Source: Enterobacter sp. RHBSTW-00994
GTDB taxonomy: Bacteria > Pseudomonadota > Gammaproteobacteria > Enterobacterales > Enterobacteriaceae
Reading direction: 5' to 3'
Assembly (NCBI RefSeq): GCF_013782625.1
Contig: NZ_CP056199.1
Location: 390,588 to 454,587 of the forward strand
Length of the DNA: 64,000 bases
Under the pieces are notes generated by a model that did no database searches, was not told where the DNA came from, and was given only the letters and a program-made list of their open reading frames with translations. Shown here one piece after another: positions 2,988 through 64,000 of this stretch (positions within the stretch are counted from its first letter, which is position 1; every line of letters begins with the position of its first letter). Both the position numbers and the translations under genes were made by a program.

Positions 2988-3322
2988 GTGAACCTTCTTT
3001 TCAAGCTGCCGATGGATTGTACTAAACACACAGTATATATGTGGTTTTGAATATTTTCTGACCGACGATTATTCCCTCAATCAGCCAGATGTTCGAGATC
3101 ATATGCTGATAATAGCGAATTGCCGTAATCTGGATCACTTATTATTGCCCTCGTAACATGATAATTATTAATCTGTGAAATGAATCACCGCTTTAATATT
3201 TCCAAAAAAAATATCCGTGCAAACTGATTGAATTTTGGCTAATCGCCACCATCTTGTGTAGACGCGAAGTGCGAACACATTCAGACAGGGGCCAAAAGGC
3301 CTCTGCCATACAGGAGATGCCA
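2988..3322. promoter_or_regulatory. aspA-fxsA divergent intergenic region
   Basis: This 335-bp AT-rich gap must hold the promoters of both divergent genes. The clearest element is a CRP-like palindrome at 3174-3189, TGTGA-N6-TCACC, which fits the known cAMP-CRP control of E. coli aspA. I see no small gene in it. Confidence 0.6.
3174..3189. promoter_or_regulatory. CRP-like binding site upstream of aspA
   Basis: TGTGA, six bases, then TCACC is one base from the consensus TGTGA-N6-TCACA. It lies 187 bp upstream of the aspA start and 134 bp upstream of fxsA, so it could serve either promoter. Confidence 0.55.
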
Positions 3323-3793
3323 GTGCGCTGGATACCGTTTATTGCTGTTTTTCTCTATGTCTACATTGAGATATCGATTTTTATTCAGGTCGCTCATGTG
3401 CTTGGCGTCCTGCTGACGCTGATCCTGGTGATCTTCACATCGGTGATTGGGATGTCGCTGGTGCGTAATCAGGGTTTCAAAAATTTCCTGTTAATGCAGC
3501 AGAAGATGGCGGCAGGTGAAAGCCCGGCGGCTGAAATGATTAAAAGCGTGTCACTGATTATTGCTGGGTTATTGCTGATTCTGCCTGGGTTCTTCACCGA
3601 CTTCCTTGGCCTGTTACTGTTGCTGCCACCGGTACAAAAACACCTGACCATGAAACTGATGCCGCACCTGAGCTTCAGCCGTATGTCTGGCGGCGGGTTT
3701 AGCTCTGGTCCTGAAAATGGGGACACCTTCGAAGGGGAATACCAGCGTAAGGACGAACAGCACGACCGTTTAGACCATAAAGACGATCGTTAA
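3323..3793 (+). CDS. fxsA: FxsA, inner-membrane protein of phage exclusion suppression
   Basis: A 156-residue FxsA-family membrane protein. In E. coli its overproduction relieves F-mediated exclusion of phage T7; the normal function is unknown. Hydrophobic segments lie at about residues 4-22, 24-42 and 72-102, followed by a charged tail (RKDEQHDRLDHKDDR). The GTG at 3323 is taken as start because CAGGAG precedes it by 6 nt and the protein then begins RWIPFIAVFLYVYIEIS as in E. coli. The longer upstream frame has no such support. It is divergent from aspA and convergent with yjeH. Confidence 0.93.
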   Translation: MRWIPFIAVFLYVYIEISIFIQVAHVLGVLLTLILVIFTSVIGMSLVRNQGFKNFLLMQQKMAAGESPAAEMIKSVSLIIAGLLLILPGFFTDFLGLLLLLPPVQKHLTMKLMPHLSFSRMSGGGFSSGPENGDTFEGEYQRKDEQHDRLDHKDDR

Positions 3794-3817
3794 GCAGAGC
3801 GCTTCACCAAATGACTG

Positions 3818-3850
3818 GCCCGGTAAGCATTGCGTTACCGGGCTTTTTTT
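3818..3850. terminator. Terminator between fxsA and yjeH
   Basis: The stem GCCCGGTAA/TTACCGGGC is followed by a T7 run on the + strand. It ends fxsA and lies immediately beyond the stop of convergent yjeH. Confidence 0.85.
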
Positions 3851-5087
3851 ACATTACACTACGCTTCGGCAAGCATACCCACAGCATTGCCAGCATGATG
3901 ATGGCGTACAAACTCTTCCATCCCACCATTGCCAGCAGCAGCAAGCACAATACCCCCCCGATAATTGCCAGGGCTTTGAAACGGCCTTGTAGTAACCGAC
4001 AGCCTGCCAGCATGCACAGCAGATAAATCATGATGAAGATGCCGTTGGCGTACACAATCAGGGCATCAAGATTGATATTCAGCCAGTAGATAGCCAGTGT
4101 ACTCAACACACAACAGCCCAGTACGGCGTTGAGCGCATTTAGCGGTAATTGACGTTTTGACAGGTGTGCAAGGCGGCTATCGGGTTTGTATTGCGCCTGT
4201 GACCATACCAGGCGTGCAAAGCTCTGAATGTAGATATTCAGGCTGGCGAAACAGGCAAGGTAACCAATCACGCAGGCCACCCACAGCGCTTTTACGCCAA
4301 ATAACTGCACGACGATACCCGGTAGTGACGCAGCAGCGGCTTTATCTGCCCCGAATGCGTTAAAGTGCAGTACCAACACAGTACAGGCCCAATAAACCGA
4401 GCCCGCTAACAGCAGGCCTATCATCAGGGCGCGCGGAAAATCACGCTCGGGCTGTTTAAACTCTGACGCCAGATGAGCAAAAGCCTCCAGGCCGACGAAA
4501 CACCAAAACATCACGGAGAGTGCGGCGAACAGTTGTGAATGATCGACATTCGTGATGGCCGGGAACGGAATTTCTGCCACCGTGATATCGCCAGCCCACC
4601 AGGTCGCGGCAATCAGTGCGACGATCAGCACGGCAACCAGCGTTTGTAGGTTAGCGCTCGAACTGGCTCCCCGTGAACCGACCCACCAGACAATCGCCAG
4701 TGTACCCAGTTCAGCGAACAAAAGTTGTTTATCGTGCCAGCCAAACAGCGCCTGTCCGAACCCCGTCGCAATGTGCAGTGCCGCCGGAAGCCCGACCGGA
4801 ATCACCGACAAAAAAAGCCAGCCGGTGACACGCTCAAGACGAGGGCCAAAGGCCATGCCGACAAAGTGCGCCACGCCTCCTGCGCTGGGGAAATGCCGGC
4901 CCAGTACGGCAAAAACGATCGCTACTGGAAACACCAGTACAATCAACACTGGCCATGCCCACAGGCTGTTATTTCCGGCAACCAGTGCGGCCAGCGCGGG
5001 TACGGCAAACACGCCCGTACCTAACAAGGAGGTTGAGAGTAAGCCAACGCCTTGTGCCAGCCCCAACTCCTGTTTGAGTCCACTCAT
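3849..5087 (-). CDS. yjeH: L-methionine/branched-chain amino acid exporter YjeH
   Basis: An APC-superfamily inner-membrane transporter of 412 residues, near the E. coli length of 418. E. coli YjeH exports methionine, leucine, isoleucine and valine. About twelve hydrophobic segments are visible. The N-terminus MSGLKQELGLAQGVGLLSTS contains the small-residue loop typical of the APC first membrane helix. It is transcribed away from groS, whose heat-shock promoter lies in the shared gap. Confidence 0.93.
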   Translation of the reverse strand: MSGLKQELGLAQGVGLLSTSLLGTGVFAVPALAALVAGNNSLWAWPVLIVLVFPVAIVFAVLGRHFPSAGGVAHFVGMAFGPRLERVTGWLFLSVIPVGLPAALHIATGFGQALFGWHDKQLLFAELGTLAIVWWVGSRGASSSANLQTLVAVLIVALIAATWWAGDITVAEIPFPAITNVDHSQLFAALSVMFWCFVGLEAFAHLASEFKQPERDFPRALMIGLLLAGSVYWACTVLVLHFNAFGADKAAAASLPGIVVQLFGVKALWVACVIGYLACFASLNIYIQSFARLVWSQAQYKPDSRLAHLSKRQLPLNALNAVLGCCVLSTLAIYWLNINLDALIVYANGIFIMIYLLCMLAGCRLLQGRFKALAIIGGVLCLLLLAMVGWKSLYAIIMLAMLWVCLPKRSVM

Positions 5088-5127
5088 TTACGTCGTCCTG
5101 CCAAGATCAAAAGAGGGGCGATGGTAA

Positions 5128-5559
<432 letters not shown>

Positions 5560-5576
5560 TCCGCGAACGACACTGA

Positions 5577-7247
<1,671 letters not shown>

Positions 7248-7274
7248 TCGTGCGCTATACCCCATAGCATCAAG

Positions 7275-7310
7275 AAACCCCCAGGCAGAAATGTCTGGGG
7301 GTTTTTCTTT
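7275..7310 (+). terminator. Terminator of groSL
   Basis: A perfect 10-bp stem (AAACCCCCAG/CTGGGGGTTT) with a 10-nt loop is followed by a T-rich tail, 27 bp past the groL stop. Confidence 0.92.
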
Positions 7311-7380
7311 TGGTCATCTTTTAGGTATAAGGTTTACACACGGACAACTACTGTCCAGCTTATTGAAAACGAGGAATAAC

Positions 7381-7734
7381 ATGCGCGTAAAAGTCTGTGC
7401 AGGGATCGTAGGGGCAGCATTGCTGCTGGCGGGTTGTAGCTCCAGTAATGAGCTGTCTGCTGGTGGTCAGAATGTTCGCTTTGTGGAAGATAAGCCGGGC
7501 AGTGAGTGCCAGCTGTTAGGTACAGCAACCGGTGAGCAAAGCAACTGGATGTCTGGTCAACACGGTGAAGAGGGGGGGTCTATGCGCGGCGCGGCAAATG
7601 CTCTGCGTAACCAGGCGGCTGCAATGGGTGGCAATGTGATTTATGGCGTGAGCAGCCCAACGCAAGGAATGTTGTCGAGCTTTGTCCCTACGGCCAGCGC
7701 AATGAATGGCCAGGTCTATAAATGCCCGAACTGA
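7381..7734 (+). CDS. yjeI: DUF4156 lipoprotein YjeI
   Basis: A small lipoprotein of 117 residues and unknown function, orthologous to E. coli YjeI. The signal peptide MRVKVCAGIVGAALLLAGC ends in the lipobox LAGC, with lipidated Cys19. The mature part contains the Ser/Gly-rich GQHGEEGGSMRGAAN stretch typical of the family. The ATG at 7381 is chosen because GAGG precedes it and the signal peptide starts exactly there. It is separated from groL by a terminator, so it has its own promoter. E. coli yjeJ, which follows it there, is absent. Confidence 0.93.
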   Translation: MRVKVCAGIVGAALLLAGCSSSNELSAGGQNVRFVEDKPGSECQLLGTATGEQSNWMSGQHGEEGGSMRGAANALRNQAAAMGGNVIYGVSSPTQGMLSSFVPTASAMNGQVYKCPN

Positions 7735-7745
7735 TTGCCTTTTTA

Positions 7746-7768
7746 CCCTCTCCCTTGCAGGGAGAGGG
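7746..7768. terminator. Terminator hairpin between yjeI and epmB
   Basis: The perfect 9-bp stem CCCTCTCCC/GGGAGAGGG with loop TTGCA is followed by TTT on the + strand and sits between convergent genes. The same stem recurs at 41719-41742. Confidence 0.8.
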
Positions 7769-7778
7769 TTTGGATTAA

Positions 7779-8807
7779 TCAACTCTGACGCAGTTGCAAA
7801 TCCAGCGGCGTTTTACTCGGTTCACCACCAATCTCACGCGCCAGTTTCGGAACCATATAACCCGAGACCAGGGTCAGTAGCTCGCGCATAATCTGTCGGG
7901 CTTCCTCATCTGTGACCATGAAATGCGCCGCACCTTGCACACGGTCCAGCACGTGCAGGTAATAGGGCATCACACCTGCATCAAACAATGCGTTGCTGAG
8001 CTCAGCGAGTACTCGTGCATTATCATTGACGCCGCGCAGCAGTACGCTCTGGTTTAACAATGTCACGCCCACTTTACGCAAACGTGTCATTGCAAAGCGG
8101 AACGCGTCATCGATTTCGTTAGCGTGGTTGATATGGTTCACCAGCAGGATCTGCAACCGGGACTGCTCAAAACGCGAGACCAGACCGTCGGTAATGCGTG
8201 CAGGGATCACTATCGGCAAACGGCTGTGAATGCGCAGACGTTTAATGTGCGGAATCGCTTCCAGTTGGGCGAGTAGCCAGTCCAGTTCATGATCTTTTGC
8301 CATCAGCGGATCGCCGCCGGAAAAAATGATCTCATCCAGCTCAGGATGCGTTGCAATATAGTCCAGGGCAACCTGCCAGTTTCGCTTATTGCCCTGATTT
8401 TCGGCATAAGGGAAGTGACGGCGGAAGCAATAGCGACAATTTACCGCACAACCGCCCTTGACCAGTAGCAGCGCACGGTTCAGGTATTTATGCAATAGTC
8501 CTGGCACGACGCTGTTCTGTTCTTCCAGCGGATCAGTGCTAAACCCCGGTGCGGTAACAAACTCATCCTGAGAGGTAAGTGTTTGTTTTAGCAGAGGGTC
8601 ATCAGGGTTGCCTTTTTCCATTCGCGCAACAAACGCGCGGGGAACACGCAGCGCAAAGAGACGCTTAGCCTCGCGGCCTGCGAGCAAATTTTCATGCTTA
8701 TCCAGGTCTAACAGATGCAGCAGTTCATCAGGACTGGTGATTACATCGGCAAGTTGCGATAACCAATCTTCTCTGGACGGGGTATTTAGGGTTACAATAT
8801 GCGCCAT
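7779..8807 (-). CDS. epmB: EF-P beta-lysylation enzyme EpmB (lysine 2,3-aminomutase family)
   Basis: A radical-SAM, PLP-dependent aminomutase that makes (R)-beta-lysine, which EpmA then attaches to elongation factor P. The [4Fe-4S] cysteines C120, C124 and C127 lie in GGCAVNCRYCFRR. At 342 residues it matches E. coli. It is divergent from efp, the modified substrate, with only 41 bp between starts, so the promoters overlap; epmA is at 17.6 kb. All three components of the pathway are therefore in this window. Confidence 0.96.
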   Translation of the reverse strand: MAHIVTLNTPSREDWLSQLADVITSPDELLHLLDLDKHENLLAGREAKRLFALRVPRAFVARMEKGNPDDPLLKQTLTSQDEFVTAPGFSTDPLEEQNSVVPGLLHKYLNRALLLVKGGCAVNCRYCFRRHFPYAENQGNKRNWQVALDYIATHPELDEIIFSGGDPLMAKDHELDWLLAQLEAIPHIKRLRIHSRLPIVIPARITDGLVSRFEQSRLQILLVNHINHANEIDDAFRFAMTRLRKVGVTLLNQSVLLRGVNDNARVLAELSNALFDAGVMPYYLHVLDRVQGAAHFMVTDEEARQIMRELLTLVSGYMVPKLAREIGGEPSKTPLDLQLRQS

Positions 8808-8848
8808 TTTGTGGCTTAGCTACCAGTTAACAATTTTTAGAGGGCCTT

Positions 8849-9415
8849 ATGGCGACTTACTATAGCAACGATTTTCGTGCTGGTCTTAAAATCATGATGG
8901 ACGGCGAACCGTATGCGGTTGAAGCCAGCGAATTCGTTAAACCAGGTAAAGGCCAGGCGTTTGCACGCGTTAAGCTGCGCCGCCTGCTGACCGGTACTCG
9001 TGTAGAGAAAACCTTCAAGTCCACCGACTCCGCTGAAGGCGCAGACGTTGTCGATATGAACCTGACTTACCTCTACAACGACGGTGAGTTCTATCACTTC
9101 ATGAACAACTCTACTTTCGAACAGCTGTCTGCTGACGAGAAAGCCGTTGGCGAAAACGCGAAATGGCTGCTGGATCAGGCCGAGTGCATCGTGACCCTGT
9201 GGAATGGCCAGCCTATCTCTGTGACCCCACCTAACTTCGTCGAGCTGGAAATCGTTGAAACCGATCCAGGCCTGAAAGGTGACACCGCAGGTACTGGCGG
9301 TAAGCCAGCTAAACTGTCTACCGGTGCAGTGGTTAAAGTTCCACTGTTCGTACAGACGGGCGAAGTGATCAAAGTGGATACTCGCTCTGGCGAATATGTA
9401 TCCCGCGTGAAGTAA
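8849..9415 (+). CDS. efp: Translation elongation factor P
   Basis: EF-P binds ribosomes stalled at polyproline and promotes peptide-bond formation. The 188 residues form the usual KOW-like plus two OB domains. The modified residue Lys34 is present in [10 protein letters not shown], as required for EpmA/EpmB beta-lysylation. The start follows TTTAGAGGG closely. It is divergent from epmB. A small imperfect palindromic repeat lies just after the stop. Confidence 0.98.
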
Positions 9416-9422
9416 TTCACGT

Positions 9423-9487
9423 ATACCCGTCATATTTTACGTTGCAAAAGGCGTTGGCTTTTATGCAGCGTGAATGACTTTGGGTAT
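9423..9487. repeat. YPAL-like short imperfect palindrome
   Basis: The ends ATACCC (9423-9428) and GGGTAT (9482-9487) enclose arms GTCATATTTTACGTTGCA and TGCAGCGTGAATGAC, which pair with a few indels around a roughly 17-nt centre. The end sequences resemble palindromic intergenic repeats I recall from Klebsiella, Serratia and Yersinia. A second, separate hairpin (GGCGCAGC/GCTGCGCC) follows at 9499-9518. Confidence 0.5.
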
Positions 9488-9498
9488 GAACGAGTAAA

Positions 9499-9518
9499 GG
9501 CGCAGCGTTCGCTGCGCC
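9499..9518. terminator. Stem-loop after efp
   Basis: The stem GGCGCAGC/GCTGCGCC closes the loop GTTC. There is no T-run after it, so it may be a processing or transcript-protecting hairpin rather than a strong terminator. Confidence 0.4.
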
Positions 9519-9540
9519 TGAACGACTGATTCAGGCAGGG

Positions 9541-9675
9541 ATGATGAAACGTACCGTTAAAATTCTACTGCTGCTGGTCCTCTCCAGCGCGATACTTTCC
9601 GGTTGCAACACCGCGCGCGGCGTTGGCGAAGATATCAAAGACCTGGGCCACGCGATCTCGCACGCTGCCAGCTAA
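9541..9675 (+). CDS. ecnA: Entericidin A lipoprotein
   Basis: A 44-residue membrane lipoprotein, the antidote partner of entericidin B in the model of Bishop and colleagues. The signal peptide is hydrophobic (residues 7-20) and ends in LSGC. The mature peptide begins CNTARGVGEDIKDLGHAISHAAS, nearly identical in pattern to E. coli EcnA. A second ATG directly follows the first; the longer form matches the usual MMKR start. ecnB follows after 107 bp. Confidence 0.93.
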   Translation: MMKRTVKILLLLVLSSAILSGCNTARGVGEDIKDLGHAISHAAS

Positions 9676-9730
9676 TTCTCTCCAGTATTCCTAAAATCGC
9701 TTCCGGTTCCGTCATGTTACGGGATTTTGT

Positions 9731-9740
9731 CTATGCTTAA
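9731..9740 (+). promoter_or_regulatory. Sigma-S-type -10 element upstream of ecnB
   Basis: CTATGCTTAA differs by one base from the extended sigma-S -10 sequence CTATACTTAA, and lies 43 bp before the ecnB ATG. This agrees with the reported RpoS-dependent expression of entericidin B. Confidence 0.6.
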
Positions 9741-9782
9741 GTGGCTATGCACAAACAACTTTGGCTATAAAAGGAAGAAATT

Positions 9783-9929
9783 ATGGTTAAGAAAACAATT
9801 GCAGCGTTATTTTCTGTCCTGGTGCTTTCTTCAGTTTTAACCGCCTGTAACACCACGCGTGGGGTTGGTCAGGATATTTCTGAAGGTGGTAGTGCAATAT
9901 CGGGTGCAGCAACAAAAGCACAGCAGTAA
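9783..9929 (+). CDS. ecnB: Entericidin B, bacteriolytic lipoprotein
   Basis: A 48-residue cationic lipoprotein reported to promote lysis in stationary phase at high osmolarity. The signal peptide ends in LTAC, and the mature sequence [27 protein letters not shown] follows the family pattern. AGGAAG lies 5-6 nt before the ATG. It shares the CNT-RGVG core with ecnA, so the two are tandem duplicates. Its own sigma-S-like promoter is visible in the gap. The EcnR regulator is convergent just downstream. Confidence 0.94.
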
Positions 9930-9935
9930 TGAAAA

Positions 9936-9966
9936 ACGGTACGGGACTGAGCCGTTGCCGTACCGT
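9936..9966. terminator. Terminator between ecnB and ecnR
   Basis: A perfect 9-bp stem ACGGTACGG/CCGTACCGT reaches into the ecnR stop codon. The T-run is on the minus strand, so it best serves ecnR but can also stop ecnB transcripts. Confidence 0.75.
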
Positions 9967-10565
9967 TAGCTTTCCGATTCCTGCAAAGACAAAAATGGAG
10001 AGAAGCGCGTATCCATATGCAGTTTCATGCGGATATTGCGCTTGTAGGTATAGACCGTTTTCCCGTTGATACTCAGGTGGCTGGCAATTTTTTGGTTACT
10101 CGCGCCATCCATCCACAATGTCAGCACTTTCTCTTCTTGTCGGGTCAATAGTGGCGCGGCAATTTGTGGTATCTCCACGCTGGAACAGGATGTTAATGCA
10201 TCATTAATGACGGTTGCCAGTTTCTCAAGATCCACATTTTTCAACAGCGATGACCAAACCGGGAATTGCGCCAGATAGCCCCCCATCTCTTGTTCTTCAC
10301 CCGACTGCAGCAAAATAAAGGGTAATGTCTCGCTGGCAATCAACAAGGATGACAGCTGCTGGAAATGATGAATATCCTGCTTGAAGCTGTGTAAATCAGC
10401 GATAACCAGCGTCGGTTTCCACTGCAGAATGTGCTCTCTGGCGAGGAAAAGATTATTCAGTCCGGTCACAACGAAATGACCAGGAAACAAGCCTGAATGA
10501 TTGAGCCATGCTTCAAACCCTGCACGGGTGAAGTGACAACGGTCAATCAAAAGAATTTTGAACAT
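9966..10565 (-). CDS. ecnR: EcnR/EntR, LuxR-type regulator of the entericidin locus
   Basis: A 199-residue protein with an atypical receiver-like N-terminus (FKILLIDRCHFTRAGFEAWL) and a C-terminal LuxR/FixJ helix-turn-helix (LLTRQEEKVLTLWMDGASNQKIASHLSINGKTVYTYKRNI, given in part: residues about 140-180). It resembles EntR, described beside ecnAB in Citrobacter freundii; E. coli lacks it here. The ATG at 10565 is chosen from the family N-terminus MFKILLIDR. No good ribosome site is visible, and the frame is open 17 codons further upstream. It is convergent with ecnB, so regulation of ecnAB is inferred from location and precedent. Confidence 0.8.
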   Translation of the reverse strand: MFKILLIDRCHFTRAGFEAWLNHSGLFPGHFVVTGLNNLFLAREHILQWKPTLVIADLHSFKQDIHHFQQLSSLLIASETLPFILLQSGEEQEMGGYLAQFPVWSSLLKNVDLEKLATVINDALTSCSSVEIPQIAAPLLTRQEEKVLTLWMDGASNQKIASHLSINGKTVYTYKRNIRMKLHMDTRFSPFLSLQESES

Positions 10566-10755
10566 ATTGTATTCGCAGTTGGCAAAGGGGTTGGGCTTCC
10601 TGCCATCAGAAAGCACACCATCATAGGGAAGTCGGATGAGTGATAAATGCCTGAACTACGCGGCATACTGAGGCTATTTCTTGCCTTAACACGTTCAGCA
10701 CAAAAGGATTGAAAAAAAATCACTCACTAACCAAAATATGACGAGTAATCTCTGC

Positions 10756-56902: not shown

Positions 56903-57011
56903 TTTTGCTTTTCAGCGCTCCCAGAAACCTTCTTTTCTTCTTGTATGGTAGCTATTCCTGGCGCATTCTTTGATAATAAATTGAAACGCAATTTTATCTT
57001 TGAGATTTGCC

Positions 57012-57950
57012 ATGGATACCGCTCTACCCACGCCTGTCTTTGCCCGTAAAAATGTGGCTTATGCCTGCGCTACGCTCTGTTGTCTGCTTTGGGGAAGCTC
57101 TTACCCGGCGATAAAAAGTGGCTATGAACTCTTTCATATCGCGACGGATGACATTCCATCAAAAGTGGTTTTTGCCGGATACCGCTTTCTTTTCGCAGGG
57201 GGATTATTGTTGCTCTTTGCACTCGTACAGCGCAAACCCATCGCCAGACTAACGGTCTCACAGTTCGGTCAACTCACGATCCTCGGCGTGACACAAACAA
57301 CAATCCAGTACACCTTCTTTTATATCGGGCTGGCTTATACAACGGGCGTCAATGGCTCGATTATGAATGCCACAGGAACATTCTTCAGCGTGCTGCTGGC
57401 GCACTTTATCTACCACAATGACAAGCTCAGCTATAACAAAGCGCTGGGTTGTATCCTGGGATTTGTGGGGGTCATGCTGGTGAACTTCCACAGTGGGTTG
57501 AGTGAGTTCAGGTTTGTCTGGAAGGGGGATGGATTTGTGGTTCTTGCGGCGTTTATTCTTTCTGCCGCAACGCTCTACGGGAAACGCATCTCCCAGACGG
57601 TCGATCCTACAGTCATGACTGGCTGGCAACTGGCCATTGGTGGTGCTGTTCTGGTGGCGGGGGGCTATATGACGGGGGGAACGCTGGAGGTACACAGCTA
57701 CAACGCTGTGGCAATCCTTGGCTATTTGACGCTTCTTTCATCTGTCGCCTTCGCTTTGTGGAGCGTGCTACTGAAAGTGAACCGCGTCAGTATGATTGCT
57801 CCGTTTAACTTTGTCGTACCTGTTGCGGGTACTGTCCTTTCCGCTATTTTCCTTGGCGAGAATATTCTGGATATCAAATATGCCGTGGCGCTGGTGCTGG
57901 TCTGCTCGGGGATTTGGTGGGTGAACAAGAGTGTGAAAAATAATCAATAG
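57012..57950 (+). CDS. EamA-family (DMT superfamily) transporter
   Basis: A 312-residue inner-membrane exporter-type protein with about ten hydrophobic helices in two EamA repeats (about 20-155 and 165-305). The repeats begin CCLLWGSSYPAIKSGYE and VLAAFILSAATLYGKR. Relatives include YdcZ/RhtA-like metabolite exporters; the substrate is unknown. The ATG at 57012 is chosen over a TTG 12 bp upstream. It is convergent with the ExuT-like transporter. E. coli has no equivalent after rplI. Confidence 0.85.
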   Translation: MDTALPTPVFARKNVAYACATLCCLLWGSSYPAIKSGYELFHIATDDIPSKVVFAGYRFLFAGGLLLLFALVQRKPIARLTVSQFGQLTILGVTQTTIQYTFFYIGLAYTTGVNGSIMNATGTFFSVLLAHFIYHNDKLSYNKALGCILGFVGVMLVNFHSGLSEFRFVWKGDGFVVLAAFILSAATLYGKRISQTVDPTVMTGWQLAIGGAVLVAGGYMTGGTLEVHSYNAVAILGYLTLLSSVAFALWSVLLKVNRVSMIAPFNFVVPVAGTVLSAIFLGENILDIKYAVALVLVCSGIWWVNKSVKNNQ

Positions 57951-57981
57951 CAGACACTATAAACTGAATTACAGTGTCTGC
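57950..57981. terminator. Stem-loop between the two transporters
   Basis: GCAGACACT/AGTGTCTGC forms a perfect 9-bp stem with a 14-nt loop, in the 42-bp gap between convergent genes. It probably ends transcription in both directions, though no T-run is present. Confidence 0.6.
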
Positions 57982-57992
57982 ATGGAGATCCT

Positions 57993-59270
57993 TTAACAGG
58001 CTGCTAGCTTGCCTTCACTTGCGACATCGTTTTCCCGGATTAGAATCCATAATGCCAGTGCGCCAAGAATGTCAAAGAAAGCGAGTGCAATGAAGAACGG
58101 TGCAAACCCAATAATGCTGACAAATGCGCCAATGAATAAGTTAAAGATTAGCTGCCCTGTCCATGCGCAGGCTCCCGCCATGCCAACGGCGGTAGCCACT
58201 TCATCCTTCTTAAAGAGATCACCACCCAGTGTGGCCGCCACAGTGGAAAGCATCTGATGAGAGAATGCGCCGATGCTGATCAGTAACACCGCGATATAGG
58301 GATTTTCGACGATACTGACCAGACCGATGGTCATCATAATGACAGCCGCAATGCTGAAGGTAATGCGTCTGGAGTTAATCAGGTTTATACCGCGGTCATG
58401 GAAAAACTTCGCAACAAAGCCGCTGGCAAGACAGCCAAGATCGCCGAGTAAGAAAGGCAGCCAGACGAACATGGCAATCTCTTTTAAGCTAAAATGAAGT
58501 GTTTCAACGAAAAATATAGGAACCCAGAAGTTGATTGTCCCCCATGCTGGATCAGCCAGAAAACGGGCAATACCAATACCCCAGAAATTACGTTGTTTGA
58601 GAATATTTTTGACAGATGTTTTTTCTTTTTTATCCGTTTTTAAATATTGCTCCTGCCCCGATTCAATATATTCACGCTCTTCCTTAGATAATCGTGACGC
58701 ATCTTTGGGGTCTTTATATAAAAAGAACCATAACAATGCCGCTATTAGCGCCAGACTACCTGAGACCAGAAACGCAAATTGCCAGCTATGAAACATAATA
58801 CACCAGGCAATCAATGGCGGTGCTAACATCGCACCCAGCGACGTCCCCATATTAAATACACCAGTGGCAATTCCGCGCTCTTTAGCTGGAAACCAGATTG
58901 ATGCCGTCTTAACACCCGCAGGAATGGCGGAGGCTTCACTGAAACCCATGAGTGCACGCATAAATGCCAGTCCCTGCCAACTGCCTGTAAGCGCATGCCC
59001 CATCGTCGCGAGCCCCCAGATTGCGGCACAAATGGCAAAGCTGAGTTTTAAACCGACGGTATCAATAAAGAAGCCCATCACGGGTTGACCTAACGTATAA
59101 GCGAACTGGAACGCACTGACAATCCAGGAATAGTGTTCCTTCGTTATGCCGGTGGTTTCCATAATTGTAGGTGCAGCAATCCCTAAAGCAGTTCTATCCA
59201 GATAGTTAATAACAGTAATAAAACATACGAGTGCAATCATATGCCATCGGTAGTTTTTTATTTTTTTCAT
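57993..59270 (-). CDS. MFS transporter, anion:cation symporter family, ExuT-like
   Basis: A 425-residue major facilitator with about twelve helices. It aligns well from memory with the hexuronate transporter ExuT: MKKIKNYRWHMIALVCFITV at the start, IPAGVKTASIWFPAKERGIA, and FWGIGIARFLADPAWGTINFW in part. Substrates of this family are sugar acids and related organic anions. It lies 124 bp downstream of the flavoprotein gene on the same strand, so it may be the last gene of the catabolic operon or a separate unit. The precise substrate is unknown. Confidence 0.88.
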   Translation of the reverse strand: MKKIKNYRWHMIALVCFITVINYLDRTALGIAAPTIMETTGITKEHYSWIVSAFQFAYTLGQPVMGFFIDTVGLKLSFAICAAIWGLATMGHALTGSWQGLAFMRALMGFSEASAIPAGVKTASIWFPAKERGIATGVFNMGTSLGAMLAPPLIAWCIMFHSWQFAFLVSGSLALIAALLWFFLYKDPKDASRLSKEEREYIESGQEQYLKTDKKEKTSVKNILKQRNFWGIGIARFLADPAWGTINFWVPIFFVETLHFSLKEIAMFVWLPFLLGDLGCLASGFVAKFFHDRGINLINSRRITFSIAAVIMMTIGLVSIVENPYIAVLLISIGAFSHQMLSTVAATLGGDLFKKDEVATAVGMAGACAWTGQLIFNLFIGAFVSIIGFAPFFIALAFFDILGALALWILIRENDVASEGKLAAC

Positions 59271-59330
59271 AATTAAACCCTTTAATTTATGACGGTGGTA
59301 ATTTATTAAACGTGTGATTTAATATTATTG

Positions 59331-59371
59331 CGGTAACGGAAATGGGTACTCCTTGCCACCGAATGTTACCG
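59331..59371 (-). other. Hairpin in the gap before the ExuT-like gene
   Basis: CGGTAAC and GTTACCG can pair across a 27-nt loop. The surrounding 124 bp are AT-rich. It could be a weak terminator or processing site between the flavoprotein and transporter genes. Confidence 0.35.
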
Positions 59372-59394
59372 ACTTAATTGTTGAGGTAAGTTAT

Positions 59395-61473
59395 TTAATT
59401 TTTGATGCGGTATATCTCCCCCGATAAAAAGTCCGGCCAGTTTTTTTCAAAATAATTACCATGTATATCCGGGAAATTACGCAGTGGTTTTCTGCGAACA
59501 ATGAATTCAGCATCCTGGAACGTCACCGTTAGCTTATGCTGCTTATCGCTGACCTTCTCCGGGCGAAAACGCCACGATGCTTTTGGCCCTAATCGGGTTA
59601 GAGGCAGACATGTTCCCTGATTATCAAGGACAATGCGCGCACCACGACTCCCGCCACCGCCGGCAAGATAGTGGTCCAGTGTGGTTAATATCGCTGCGGA
59701 TGCTAGCGCCATTTGTCGCCACATAAACAACCCAGCAATTTCGGCGGCATGATTAATGGTTAGCCCATTCTGGTAGACAAACTCTGCGGTGATCCTGGCG
59801 CTTGCTGCCGCCTGGTGTGTGCTTGCGGGATGACAGATAAAACCCGCGTGATCGGACATTCGTGCCTGAAGCTGTGAGCGTAAGATCGGAATACTCATGC
59901 CAGTATCATTTGCCAGTGCATGAGTGATGATCCCTGTGACATCACGGAGAGAGTCCGACGCTACCTCTGCTGTCACCTGGCCCATGAGAGTGCTGCCGCT
60001 TTCGCCAATATAGCGAGCCAGGCGAACCGCAAACACCTGTCCGGCATTCAGTGCAGCACCGCCAGGGCGTGTCACACCATGCGTACCTGCAACTTCACCC
60101 ACGGCAAAGCAGCCTTTCAGGGAAGTTTGTCCCCAGATATCTACTTCAATGCCGCCGTTCATGTGCTGGTTGTTCATGGTAAATTGCAGCGGTTTTTTGG
60201 TCAGATCGTGCCCATGCATTTTGTAGAGAGAAATGGAAAGCGGATTCATCTGTTTAAGCCTCTGAATCGGCAAAGAATTCAATGCCTGATTGTTTTCCAG
60301 ATAGGCTCGAACGTCCTCATCAACCCGCGCCAGTGAAAAAGGGAGATCGCCAGGTACAGCTTCGGGATTACGGTTAAAGTCCATAAACACTTTTCGGCCT
60401 AACGACTGCTCGTGTGCAATGGCCATGTCCAGCAAGCTTGAACCAAAGTCCATAATCCGTGATGCGTGGAAAGGCCACTGATACCCTTTACGGAAGATAT
60501 TCGATGCCAGCTCCTGAGTGGTGCGGTAGTAATCGGCCAGAAAGTTGTATTCTGAACCGTTATTGTCGGTGGAGTAGATGTAAGGGATGACCTGCACATA
60601 AGTGCCGGAAAGATTCCATGGGAAAGTACTGCGCGGAGTACCAATACCGAACTGGCTCTCGGTAATGTTGGCGAGCGTCAGCCCCTCTTCCAGTGCCAGC
60701 CCCAATGAACCGAAACACTTATTCGGATAGACGCTGTCACGGTAGAGTTCGCCAGGACCGCCAGTCGCTAGCACCACATTAGGTGTCATGACGATAGCCA
60801 ATCCCCACGCATTATGGGCGCGCGAGTTGGTCACCAGAACTGCGCCGATGACTCGTTCTGTTCCCTCGTCATCGCTGTGGCGGAGCAGTTTGATAACGGT
60901 AGCGCTGGTTAACAATGGGATATGAAGGCGTTTTACCTCCTCCAGCAGGACTTTCACCATCAGTCTTGAGGTGCGTGGCCCACAGGATGTCGCCCGCCCG
61001 GCTTCATCGTGGTCGGTCTGATAACGAAGAATTGCACCAAAGCGATCTTCCGGAAGTTCCAGACCAAGATATTGTAACCCCCCCAGTGTGTGCAGTGAGC
61101 CAACCGCTTCCACATACGCTGTGTCGAGATCCATCGCTCCACCGCTGGCAAGCGCATCCGCAAGCCTCATAAAGCTATCGCCATTACCTGCGGTTGCCGC
61201 GGTAAAGAGGGTTTGTTTATCTGAACCGGAGCATGCGGATGTCCCCATATACAAACCTGCTGTTGCCAGCAGCACTTTCTGTTTACGCCGTTTTAGCTCA
61301 ATGGCGGCGCGTAAACCTGCAGCACCGCTGCCAACTACCAGAGCATCAGCATGCCATACTGGCCAGGTGAGCCCTTCAAGTGTCAGCGTTGACTCAGGTT
61401 CAGCATGATCAAACCCTTTTGGAAAGGAGACATGCGTCAGCGCATCAAGGATTGCATCATTCGTGTTGCTCAT
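59395..61473 (-). CDS. Soluble FAD-dependent oxidoreductase, fumarate reductase/succinate dehydrogenase flavoprotein family
   Basis: A 692-residue cytoplasmic protein without signal peptide or cytochrome and FMN-binding domains. The dinucleotide motif is VVGSGAAGLRAAIEL (GSGAAG at 48-53). Late segments HMNGGIEVD and GTHGVTRPGGAALNAGQ parallel the FrdA active-site His and Arg regions. The FrdA covalent-FAD histidine position is replaced in MGTSACSGSD, so FAD should be non-covalent. A C-terminal helical domain is present. It probably reduces or oxidises a C-C bond in an organic acid or its CoA ester. It overlaps the CoA-transferase gene by 4 bp, so they are coupled. The substrate is unknown. 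Confidence 0.85.
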   Translation of the reverse strand: MSNTNDAILDALTHVSFPKGFDHAEPESTLTLEGLTWPVWHADALVVGSGAAGLRAAIELKRRKQKVLLATAGLYMGTSACSGSDKQTLFTAATAGNGDSFMRLADALASGGAMDLDTAYVEAVGSLHTLGGLQYLGLELPEDRFGAILRYQTDHDEAGRATSCGPRTSRLMVKVLLEEVKRLHIPLLTSATVIKLLRHSDDEGTERVIGAVLVTNSRAHNAWGLAIVMTPNVVLATGGPGELYRDSVYPNKCFGSLGLALEEGLTLANITESQFGIGTPRSTFPWNLSGTYVQVIPYIYSTDNNGSEYNFLADYYRTTQELASNIFRKGYQWPFHASRIMDFGSSLLDMAIAHEQSLGRKVFMDFNRNPEAVPGDLPFSLARVDEDVRAYLENNQALNSLPIQRLKQMNPLSISLYKMHGHDLTKKPLQFTMNNQHMNGGIEVDIWGQTSLKGCFAVGEVAGTHGVTRPGGAALNAGQVFAVRLARYIGESGSTLMGQVTAEVASDSLRDVTGIITHALANDTGMSIPILRSQLQARMSDHAGFICHPASTHQAAASARITAEFVYQNGLTINHAAEIAGLFMWRQMALASAAILTTLDHYLAGGGGSRGARIVLDNQGTCLPLTRLGPKASWRFRPEKVSDKQHKLTVTFQDAEFIVRRKPLRNFPDIHGNYFEKNWPDFLSGEIYRIKN

Positions 61474-63020
61474 ATGCTCTCCTCCATTGGCGTGAAAAGT
61501 GCGGTATCCATGAGCCGGGGTTGGTTAATGAGCGGCTGGAACGCCATGAAGGGTAAAATATCGCGCTCTATCTCAATTCCTGGGGCAATCTCAATTAACT
61601 CGACGCCTTGTTCGGCCAGACGGAAAACGGCACGTTCCGTGATATACAGAACTTCTTGCCCTTTTTGCCGGGCGTACTGGCCACTGAAGGTGATTTTCTC
61701 CACCTGCGTCACGAGTTTGGGGACCTGACCAGGCTGGAGGATAGCGAGGCCATCGGGCGTGACATTAACCTTACTTCCTTTGGCATCAAATGTGCCGCAG
61801 AAGACCACTTTACGGGCATTCTGGGCAATCTCCAGGAAACCGCCTGGGCCAATTAAACTTCCATTAAGGTGTGAGACATTTACATTGCCGTACTGATCCA
61901 TTTCCCCCATGCCAAGGAACGTTACATCAATCCCACCGCCGCTATAGAACTCGAACTGATCCAGCGAAGAGAGAATGGCATCGGCATTGCGTGCGCAACC
62001 AAAGAATGCATCATCCAGCATCATGCCGTTATGAACGCCTTGTTCGACGCTTAACCACAGGCTGTTGTAAGGCACACCTTCGCGTAGGGCTATACCGGGA
62101 ATGCCGCCAGGAATACCAAAACCAAAGTTGGTGGATGCCCCAGGAATCAACTCACGAGCGGCACGACGAGCGATCAACCGTCGTACAGGATGTTCAGGAA
62201 GAGCGATGGCGTCCGTTGAGCAGCGACGGCGATGCTGTCCACTGATGGTCAGGTCATAGCCGCCGAGGTAGGTTTGCGACTGTTCGCGATATTCAACAAT
62301 ACCGTCAACCAGAATGCCCGGGAGTTTTACTCGCCGTGGCTCGATGGCGCCTGTTTCGAGTACATCGCGGACCTGTACGAACACTTTTCCACCGCAGTTG
62401 TGCGCGGCCAGTGCCATTGAGTAGCTATCCATATCAATGGCTTCTTCTTCCAGGCTGACATTGCCGCGCGCATCGGCGTAGGTTCCACGTATGATGGCGT
62501 AGTCGACCTTGAAGGGGAGATAGCGGAGTTTTTTTTCACCGTCAATCTCAATAATCTCGACCAGATTATCCGTTGTTCGGGCGTTCGATTTTCCACCGCC
62601 ATGACGTGGGTCGACAAAGGAGTCCAGCCCTACATGGGTGAAAAGCCCTGGGCGGCCCGCGCCAATTTCCCGGAGCAATGCCTGAATGACGCCTCCAGGA
62701 AAACAGTAGGCCTCGATCTCTTCCTTGCGAACCAGTTCCTGCATTTTGGGAGACCAGGTAAAGTGTCCGGCAATCACTCGCCGGAGCATGCCGGCATGGG
62801 CGAAACGGTTACTTCCTTTCCTGTCTCGATCGCCAATACCTAGTGAGTGAACCAGCGTCAGGTCGCGAGGATGACCTGTTTCGAGGAAGCGTGCCTCCAG
62901 TGCTTCCAGCAGATGGTCTGCTTCTACCATCCCGCCGCCGTTACCACTGATAGCGATGGTTGCACCGTCGTGGATAGTCGCGACCAGCGCTTGCGCTGTT
63001 GCTAATTTCTGCATCGTCAT
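61470..63020 (-). CDS. Acyl-CoA:acetate/3-ketoacid CoA-transferase, YdiF-like
   Basis: A 516-residue family I CoA-transferase with fused alpha and beta halves, as in E. coli YdiF and propionate CoA-transferases. The N-half opens KLATAQALVATIHDGATIAI with the CoA-binding GNGGG; the C-half carries the probable catalytic Glu326 in LSVEQGVHNG. It would activate a carboxylic acid by CoA exchange. An alternative ATG two codons in (63014) has better spacing from AGAGAG. It is 6 bp after the hydratase gene and overlaps the flavoprotein start (ATGA). Confidence 0.9.
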   Translation of the reverse strand: MTMQKLATAQALVATIHDGATIAISGNGGGMVEADHLLEALEARFLETGHPRDLTLVHSLGIGDRDRKGSNRFAHAGMLRRVIAGHFTWSPKMQELVRKEEIEAYCFPGGVIQALLREIGAGRPGLFTHVGLDSFVDPRHGGGKSNARTTDNLVEIIEIDGEKKLRYLPFKVDYAIIRGTYADARGNVSLEEEAIDMDSYSMALAAHNCGGKVFVQVRDVLETGAIEPRRVKLPGILVDGIVEYREQSQTYLGGYDLTISGQHRRRCSTDAIALPEHPVRRLIARRAARELIPGASTNFGFGIPGGIPGIALREGVPYNSLWLSVEQGVHNGMMLDDAFFGCARNADAILSSLDQFEFYSGGGIDVTFLGMGEMDQYGNVNVSHLNGSLIGPGGFLEIAQNARKVVFCGTFDAKGSKVNVTPDGLAILQPGQVPKLVTQVEKITFSGQYARQKGQEVLYITERAVFRLAEQGVELIEIAPGIEIERDILPFMAFQPLINQPRLMDTALFTPMEESI

Positions 63021-63026
63021 TTCTCT

Positions 63027-63803
63027 CTAGTGGTTACTGAAGTGAACGTCACCTTTTTCAGCAAAGGCGCGGGTTGCCTGCTGGCAATCCTGAGTGGCGG
63101 ACATCAATCCGGCTAATAGCTGGTGTTGTAACGCGGCATGTTTGTTCTCTAATGCGAGGATCAACTGCTTGATGTGGGCCAATGCAACGGGACCGCATTT
63201 TTCCAGCGTGGCGAGTTGCTCGGTAATCCAGCCCTCAGCAAGGTCATTTTCAACCACGGCATTGATGAGCTGGGCTGTGCAGGCCTGTTCTGCTGTGAGC
63301 CTTTTCCCCAGCAGCAGCATTTCGCGGCTTAGCGCAGGGCCGACCTGTGCAAGCAGACGTTCAATACCCATCCAGCCGGGAACCATGCCTAGCATCACCT
63401 CTGGTGAGGAAAACTTGGCCGTTGGGCGTGCAATTCGAATATCGCAGCACAGCGCCAGTTCGAGGCCACCGCCAATGGCATGACCATTAATGTTAGCGAG
63501 CGTTAACTGAGGTAAATTGCGTAGCCGGTCGAAGACTTCATTCCCACGTTTAATCCACTTTCTCCCCATATCCAGCGGTGAATAAGCAGACCAGGATTTG
63601 ATATCACCACCTGCACAGAAAAATTTATCGCCTGTGGCGGTCAGTTCGACCAGGCGTAATGATTCATCTTGTTCGATATCGATTAGCAAGCGGTCGAGAC
63701 ACTCGATCATCTCCTCGTTAATGGCATGGCATTTGTCTTCCCGGTTCAGCGTCAGGCGGCAGGAGGCCGCTGCTCTGCTGAGCAGAACAGGTTGCTTTTT
63801 CAT
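63027..63803 (-). CDS. Enoyl-CoA hydratase/isomerase (crotonase superfamily)
   Basis: A 258-residue crotonase. The oxyanion-hole segments are FFCAGGDIKSW (about 61-71) and NINGHAIGGGLELAL (about 104-118). Both acid/base glutamates of hydratases appear conserved, Glu115 and Glu135 (SSPEVMLG), so hydration or dehydration of an acyl-CoA is plausible. GAGG lies 7 nt before the ATG. It is 9 bp from the upstream partial gene and 6 bp from the CoA-transferase gene. Confidence 0.9.
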   Translation of the reverse strand: MKKQPVLLSRAAASCRLTLNREDKCHAINEEMIECLDRLLIDIEQDESLRLVELTATGDKFFCAGGDIKSWSAYSPLDMGRKWIKRGNEVFDRLRNLPQLTLANINGHAIGGGLELALCCDIRIARPTAKFSSPEVMLGMVPGWMGIERLLAQVGPALSREMLLLGKRLTAEQACTAQLINAVVENDLAEGWITEQLATLEKCGPVALAHIKQLILALENKHAALQHQLLAGLMSATQDCQQATRAFAEKGDVHFSNH

Positions 63804-63812
63804 GGTAATTCC

Positions 63813-64000
63813 TCAGCAAAAATGAGCGATGCGATCGACGCTAATATCCAGCGTGCGGTTCAGGTCTTGTTGCCACCAGTAAGTAGAGAAGATTTCCAGC
63901 TCGACAGCGCCACGATAACCTGCGTTTTCAACCAGGTGGCGAATCGACTGGATTTCAATAACACCGTCGCCCGGCATTCCCCGGTCATTGACCAGATCTG
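63813..64000 (-). CDS. Sugar-phosphate isomerase/epimerase-like TIM-barrel protein (3' end only)
   Basis: The last 61 codons are in the window, ending in TGA at 63815-63813. The visible part reads DLVNDRGMPGDGVIEIQ, then GYRGAVELEIFSTYWWQQDL. That pattern matches the C-terminus of xylose-isomerase-like TIM barrels (AP-endonuclease 2 family; IolE, UlaE and dehydroshikimate dehydratases are relatives). It is the most 5' member of the leftward operon seen here; more genes may lie beyond the edge. Confidence 0.75.
   Translation of the reverse strand, partial: DLVNDRGMPGDGVIEIQSIRHLVENAGYRGAVELEIFSTYWWQQDLNRTLDISVDRIAHFC

Follow-up and report, generated by a model that had tools for sequence, protein, structure and literature searches.

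A TetR-linked accessory operon of Enterobacter and Escherichia coli that may serve the catabolism of a hexuronate-like acid

We analyzed a stretch of 64,000 nucleotides from the genome of Enterobacter sp. RHBSTW-00994 (positions 390588-454587 of the single 4.89-Mb contig NZ_CP056199.1; hereafter the window), at the right end of which lies most of a catabolic operon. With the adjoining stretch, the operon consists of six genes, for a short-chain dehydrogenase/reductase (SDR), a TIM-barrel protein, an enoyl-CoA hydratase family protein (ECH), a CoA-transferase, a flavoprotein and a major facilitator superfamily (MFS) importer, in this order, preceded by a divergent gene for a TetR regulator. We propose that this accessory, TetR-linked operon would serve the catabolism of a hexuronate or a close derivative, that is a hydroxylated C6-type acid handled outside the ordinary UxaC route, a reading that we consider evenly poised between right and wrong. 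A preliminary description made from the window alone had recognized four tightly packed genes followed by an ExuT-like importer. It missed the complete TIM-barrel gene, the SDR and the regulator because the window ends inside the TIM-barrel gene; all three were found on extending the sequence rightward, as that description had suggested. Its family calls for the TIM barrel, ECH, CoA-transferase and flavoprotein were upheld by Pfam and NCBIfam matches, and the tight packing was borne out by gaps of 9 bp (TIM barrel to ECH) and 6 bp (ECH to CoA-transferase) and an overlap of 4 bp (CoA-transferase and flavoprotein), with 124 bp between the flavoprotein and the importer.

The strongest evidence on the substrate comes from the similarity of the importers to known ones. 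When compared with eight MFS proteins of E. coli K-12, the operon's importer was 47.8% identical to ExuT, as against 27.6% to LgoT, 27.0% to DgoT, 26.3% to GarP, 26.2% to YfaV and 23.0% to GudP, and by sequence similarity it would be a hexuronate importer of the ExuT type. Elsewhere the host genome encodes ExuT (89% identity), with UxaC (94%) next to it. Another ExuT-like importer, the third in this genome (44% identity), is found at contig positions 1459301-1460527. In E. coli VR50 and MEI2BO-21, three genes for a tripartite ATP-independent periplasmic (TRAP) transporter lie directly after the flavoprotein gene, where other strains have the MFS gene, and DctM- and DctP-like genes occupy this place in one further locus (L119). 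The best relatives of the TRAP binding protein in the PDB are 4ovr, 4x8r, 4n8y, 4n15/4ln5, 4n91 and 4mij/4mhf, with 205-242 bits, compared to 145 bits for an isethionate binder and 133 bits for the best sialic-acid binder. According to excerpts of PMC7660916, 4N91 binds glucuronate and 4MHF binds both glucuronate and galacturonate; excerpts of PMC11668362 list 4X8R with glucuronate and 4N8Y with galacturonate; for the top match, 4ovr, we found no ligand name. In the alignment with 4x8r, 4n8y and 4n15, residues R146, R166 and N206 of the TRAP binding protein occupy conserved columns. Their spacing is that of Arg150, Arg170 and Asn210 of Salmonella STM3169, which are the conserved ligand residues named in the excerpts of PMC7660916; this match is by spacing, STM3169 itself being outside the alignment. 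The binding protein of some E. coli operons would thus keep the three named ligand residues of the STM3169-3171 system, although the gene neighbors of the two TRAP transporters differ. Because the MFS and TRAP importers are unrelated and both resemble hexuronate importers, two families at the same place in the operon appear to point to hexuronates. In the host genome, no relative was found at an E value of 1e-20. A TRAP protein in Pseudovibrio (L015) was dropped as a substrate clue, as it lies about 5 kb from the flavoprotein gene and is nearest to other binders. The exchange of TRAP for MFS offers a direct and cheap route to a ligand test.

Among 5426 complete E. coli genomes, 1679 had a match of any kind to the MFS gene and 1463 matched the TRAP stretch with an identity of at least 95% (1439 of them at a coverage of at least 80%). 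The sum of 3142 compares with 3143 genomes that match any part of the five-enzyme stretch, which suggests an either-or split among carriers with nearly half of them having TRAP, as judged from summed counts and not genome by genome. When the flavoprotein of a strain with MFS was set against that of a strain with TRAP, 448 of the first 450 positions were identical, as were 47 of 50 at positions 451-500; past residue 500, identity fell to 33/50, 44/50, 32/50 and 20/43 in successive segments. The operon ends of two E. coli loci (L154:1886-6832 and L008:7934-11376) differ, the last quarter of the flavoprotein diverging with the transporter. It looks as if the transporter and the C-terminus of the flavoprotein had been swapped together as a cassette.

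The operon is widespread in E. coli and invisible in K-12. At least 80% of the five-enzyme stretch was present in 3095 of the 5426 complete genomes, and any part of it in 3143 (megablast), so the five genes do occur together in other genomes. Some part of the operon plus regulator matched in 5364 genomes; among the matches listed, the weakly matching genomes align with the ytfA end only, many of them with an IS200/IS605-type element inside. An element of this type also lies within the ytfA fragment of L156. The site in K-12 MG1655 holds yjfZ and the pseudogene ytfA, a fragment of the regulator, and nothing else of the operon. The preliminary statement that E. coli has none of these genes after rplI therefore holds for MG1655 and fails for more than half of the complete genomes. 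Excerpts of PMC6790063 and PMC3614548 mention ytfA in presence/absence data and in a cell-division screen, and give no substrate. The gene order is identical in E. coli, Escherichia albertii, Entomohabitans and other members of the family, in line with the earlier view of a coherent catabolic operon that is inherited as a unit and brings an importer of its own. The flavoprotein was found at an E value of 1e-60 or better in 15 of 246 species sampled from the host's family, and in this sample it was not found at that threshold in the two other species of the host's genus. A scan of GTDB with five aligned flavoproteins yielded at least 585 confirmed relatives, from which 80 loci were kept. Two records with the operon are labeled as plasmids, CP054241.1 (L007, 834 kb) and NZ_OL790696.1 (4.8 Mb). 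The former also carries rplI and other ribosomal genes, and both look like mislabeled chromosome sequence.

When comparing the host genome with E. coli, we obtained ratios of nonsynonymous to synonymous substitution (dN/dS) of 0.04-0.08 for the SDR, TIM barrel, ECH and CoA-transferase genes, at dS values of 1.6-2.6, which are near saturation. For the flavoprotein, MFS and TetR genes dS was saturated and no ratio is given for that reason. Between two E. coli strains the ratio was 0.04-0.08 for SDR, TIM barrel, CoA-transferase and TetR, zero for ECH, which had no replacement, and 0.26 for the flavoprotein, a value probably raised by the exchanged C-terminus. The ratios indicate purifying selection, which we count in favor of the proposed reading, and together with the conserved gene order they led us to reject chance assembly or decay of the operon.

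In ECH, both positions that we take to be the catalytic glutamates are present (E115 and E135, 20 residues apart). The CoA-transferase is 40% identical to YdiF over 504 residues, and its Glu326, presumably the catalytic residue, aligns with Glu333 of YdiF; the partner genes of the two differ. The TIM barrel has E146, D185, H210 and E252 invariant in 12 aligned members, which we take to be a Glu-Asp-His-Glu set of metal ligands. Its best NCBIfam match, to 5-keto-L-gluconate epimerase, counts for the hexuronate reading and is weak (34.2 bits against a cut-off of 300). We modeled the fold from the orthologue of E. albertii, as no more than the 62 C-terminal residues are inside the window. Solved putative sugar isomerases stand near it, namely SMc04130 (3qc0/3ju2) and a protein of Paenibacillus R4 (7vpf), whose titles say only 'sugar isomerase'. 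The flavoprotein, for which a model was built on 25 of 99 homologues, shares the fold and the carboxylate-binding Arg (HGxxR) with SdhA, fumarate reductase and L-aspartate oxidase. It is 20-24% identical to SdhA and, unlike it, has neither the covalent-FAD His, which is replaced by Cys82, nor the HPTG His, nor the catalytic Arg, which falls in a gap in every one of the eight members of the subfamily that we aligned with SdhA (cut short) and NadB of K-12. With the roles of the covalent-FAD His and the catalytic Arg assumed to be as in the known enzymes, these residues set it apart from succinate dehydrogenase and rule out a plain fumarate reductase. Among the Pfam and NCBIfam matches of the operon proteins we found no UxaC isomerase, UxaA/UxuA dehydratase or UxaB/UxuB reductase. 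Compared with the ExuT-UxaC-UxaA/B-UxuA/B pathway of E. coli, the operon thus shares an importer of the ExuT type and probably the substrate class, whereas in place of the Uxa/Uxu enzymes it has a CoA-transferase, ECH, SDR, TIM barrel and flavoprotein.

We surveyed the neighborhoods of related genes in 99 loci, with open reading frames picked greedily and our own profiles in place of a trained gene finder; some spurious frames remain. Loci L001-L003 and L090-L106 lie outside this survey, L109 repeats L013 and L115 repeats L020, and L141-L153 were examined apart from it. The arrangement with divergent TetR, SDR, TIM barrel, ECH, CoA-transferase and flavoprotein occurred in eight loci (L004, L007, L008, L010, L011, L107, L108 and L119). 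A second version, with divergent TetR, SDR, Gfo/Idh, TIM barrel, MFS and flavoprotein and without CoA-transferase or ECH, occurred in 12 loci, 10 of them distinct, and Brenneria (L012) has SDR, TIM barrel and flavoprotein plus an MFS gene. The shared core of the enterobacterial forms is SDR, TIM barrel and flavoprotein. Rhizobiales and Rhodobacterales have varied selections of LacI, Gfo/Idh, CoA-transferase, ECH, aldehyde dehydrogenase, a CUT1-type ATP-binding cassette (ABC) importer, two GMC oxidoreductases and the flavoprotein; a second Gfo/Idh protein there has levoglucosan-dehydrogenase matches under the cut-off. A KdgK-like kinase, which we count in favor of a hexuronate, was present in 16 of the 99 loci (own profile, score >400), with a family match of 249.9 bits that is under the cut-off of 400. 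Some anaerobes have an OYE-type reductase, a zinc-type alcohol dehydrogenase (Zn-ADH), IlvD/Edd and SDR beside the flavoprotein, and one core cluster was found in Propionivibrio dicarboxylicus. The Gfo/Idh relative was present in 1 of 369 Gammaproteobacteria sampled. TIM-barrel relatives were present in 20 of 398 Pseudomonadota, and one of the 13 regions read, the gammaproteobacterial L144, has SDR, TIM barrel, ECH and CoA-transferase. Its stretch 3051-10690 also holds TetR and an MFS gene of the same family (profile score 243), and DUF993 replaces the flavoprotein. In addition to Gfo/Idh and TIM barrel, Bradyrhizobium-like loci (for example L146) have one gene of the DUF993 cluster and one of the enolase-superfamily cluster.

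In the catabolism that we propose, the acid would be imported by the MFS protein in symport with protons, other strains using TRAP instead. The SDR would oxidize an alcohol to a ketone, and the TIM barrel, being of the metal type, would move the proton next to that ketone as an epimerase or isomerase. The carboxylate would be activated from acetyl-CoA by the CoA-transferase, after which ECH would eliminate or add water at the beta position of the thioester and the flavoprotein would oxidize or reduce the carbon next to the carboxylate, with electrons going to O2, fumarate or quinone. The product would join 2-keto-3-deoxygluconate or central metabolism. This order of steps is a guess and perhaps unlikely to be right. 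Several observations weigh against the proposed reading as a whole. The host already has ExuT and UxaC, and therefore plain glucuronate or galacturonate would not need the operon. The second version has neither CoA-transferase nor ECH, which leaves CoA chemistry outside the shared core, and the role given to the flavoprotein is itself a guess. Most crystal ligands of TRAP binders of this kind co-purified, as excerpts of PMC11668362 warn. Relatives of the core genes also stand beside importers of other types: an aromatic-acid-type MFS protein in L025 (best match TIGR00895, under the cut-off) and, narrowly, in L013 (150.9 bits, with the galactonate model at 144.8, both under the cut-off), ABC importers labeled by eye as of the branched-chain-amino-acid type in L009 and L076, and, elsewhere, ABC importers that are SsuA-like (60.9 bits, under the cut-off) or of the CUT1 sugar type. 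Neither the aromatic-acid-type nor the branched-chain-amino-acid-type importers resemble those for sugar acids.

These mixed importers keep alive the hydroaromatic acids (quinate or shikimate type) named in the preliminary description as one possible class of substrate. In that case the SDR would oxidize a ring alcohol, the TIM barrel would dehydrate, the flavoprotein would desaturate, and the ring acid would be drawn into CoA chemistry by CoA-transferase and ECH. The Gfo/Idh relative weakly matches 4,5-dihydroxyphthalate dehydrogenase (E 4.4e-5), a Propionivibrio species ferments hydroaromatics, and we assume that the TIM barrel is in the same Pfam family as the dehydroshikimate dehydratases. 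However, neither aligner listed a dehydroshikimate dehydratase among its 50 fold matches to the model, a listing that does not exclude one, and no family of quinate dehydrogenase or 3-dehydroquinate dehydratase turned up among the Pfam matches of the operon proteins. The likeness to YdiF is at the level of the family; the position of ydiF near aroD-ydiB, formerly taken as a clue, is no evidence. We lowered hydroaromatic catabolism to an unlikely rival because the operon's own importers, an MFS protein nearest to ExuT and a hexuronate-type TRAP transporter, look hexuronate-type.

The same importers point to acids and so speak against another, also unlikely rival, namely that a ring polyol, a glycoside or another sugar acid is oxidized, epimerized and reduced, with CoA-transferase, ECH and flavoprotein acting later. 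E. coli YcjS/YcjR act on glucosides in this manner and IolG/IolI on inositols, but a common fold does not show function. A short-chain fatty-acid style beta-oxidation with CoA-transferase, ECH and flavoprotein as an acyl-CoA cycle would agree with the FadX/YdiF-type CoA-transferase, the ECH and the weak FadR-like matches of TetR; it is highly improbable in view of a flavoprotein of the complex II/NadB type rather than an acyl-CoA dehydrogenase, no thiolase among the assigned proteins of the operon, a sugar-type TIM barrel and an ExuT-type importer. Within the hexuronate reading, a more specific route is quite unlikely to be correct: the hexuronate carboxylate would be transferred onto CoA, ECH would eliminate the C4 substituent beta to the thioester, and SDR, TIM barrel and the flavoprotein, which would be of a new type, would adjust the ring toward 2-keto-3-deoxygluconate. 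Its substrate might be the 4-O-methylglucuronate of plant xylan, to name one, or a differently substituted uronate closed to UxaC. If this were true, more than half of E. coli would have a second uronate pathway, lost by K-12, and the model strain would for that reason never have shown it.

We found no characterization or substrate of the gene set in the literature searched, which covered quinate/CoA-transferase sets, rplI-ytfB-fklB, ytfA, Propionivibrio hydroaromatics, gut quinic acid, Lactobacillus quinate, SMc0413x and DUF993 and left most subscription journals out of scope; this agrees with the earlier remark that no described pathway has this set. The excerpts of PMC12542648 contain annotation only. 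Gut and plant bacteria probably use a uronic-acid-like sugar acid via a route for which we found no counterpart among described pathways. In E. coli, over half of the complete genomes have the trait, which also occurs in scattered soil, plant, marine and gut bacteria. Knowing the substrate would account for this large accessory locus and would assign a function both to a widespread subfamily of flavoproteins and to the TIM barrels that have solved structures and lack a role.

The features of the operon are listed in the table. For the SDR, translation probably starts at the second ATG, which lies 12 bp into the longest open reading frame. Past TetR, we read by eye ytfB, fklB and cycA, which are annotated in this order in E. 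coli.

Table. Features of the operon, with positions counted in the 64,000-nt window of NZ_CP056199.1 and continued beyond its end for values above 64000
Feature	Position	Strand	Remarks
Intrinsic-terminator-like hairpin	57950..57981	-	13 pairs; just 3' of the MFS stop; consensus scan
MFS importer	57993..59270	-	Nearest ExuT of K-12
Flavoprotein, 692 aa	59395..61473	-	Soluble; complex II / L-aspartate oxidase superfamily, distinct subfamily
CoA-transferase, 516 aa	61470..63020	-	Single-chain, YdiF type; open reading frame, family matches and YdiF alignment
ECH, 258 aa	63027..63803	-	Open reading frame and family matches
TIM barrel, C-terminal part in window	63813..64000	-	PF01261, IolI / ketose 3-epimerase type; last 62 residues
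TIM barrel, complete gene	63813 to 64658	-	Adjoining stretch read beyond window end
SDR dehydrogenase	about 64665-65462	-	Outside window; 6 bp from TIM barrel
Palindrome CAACCATCTGGTTG	65516-65529		Between TetR and SDR
TetR regulator	65637-66284	+	Divergent; TetR_C_29 domain; outside window

The operon appears self-contained and locally regulated. The palindrome CAACCANNTGGTTG is present in the intergenic region between TetR and SDR of the host genome, E. coli, E. albertii and Entomohabitans. Intergenic regions of this kind from 19 loci align around it, the remaining loci having degenerate or doubled forms; we call it operator-like because of this conserved position. The exact pattern occurs once in the host genome, at the TetR-SDR site, and has no copy inside the 64-kb window itself; a reversed-pattern control also occurs once, elsewhere. 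Genome-wide rarity is a weak argument, since in six genomes the exact pattern was found in five places and the reversed control in three. In its favor, it was found once in L004, where 0.06 were expected; it was present in 18 of 164 loci, some of which are overlapping copies and at least one (L052) unrelated. A consensus scan of the 8.65-kb region gave 16 terminator-like sites compared to 8.6 in shuffles. The promoter scan gave 4 sites compared to 10.1 in shuffles, and therefore nothing was built on it. The MFS gene faces a convergent gene for an EamA-family transporter (57000-57950), placed between the operon and rplI. The EamA gene was absent from the E. coli loci read (L008, L154, L155 and L090, the last from K-12 MG1655), and a relative occupies the same place in Entomohabitans (L011).

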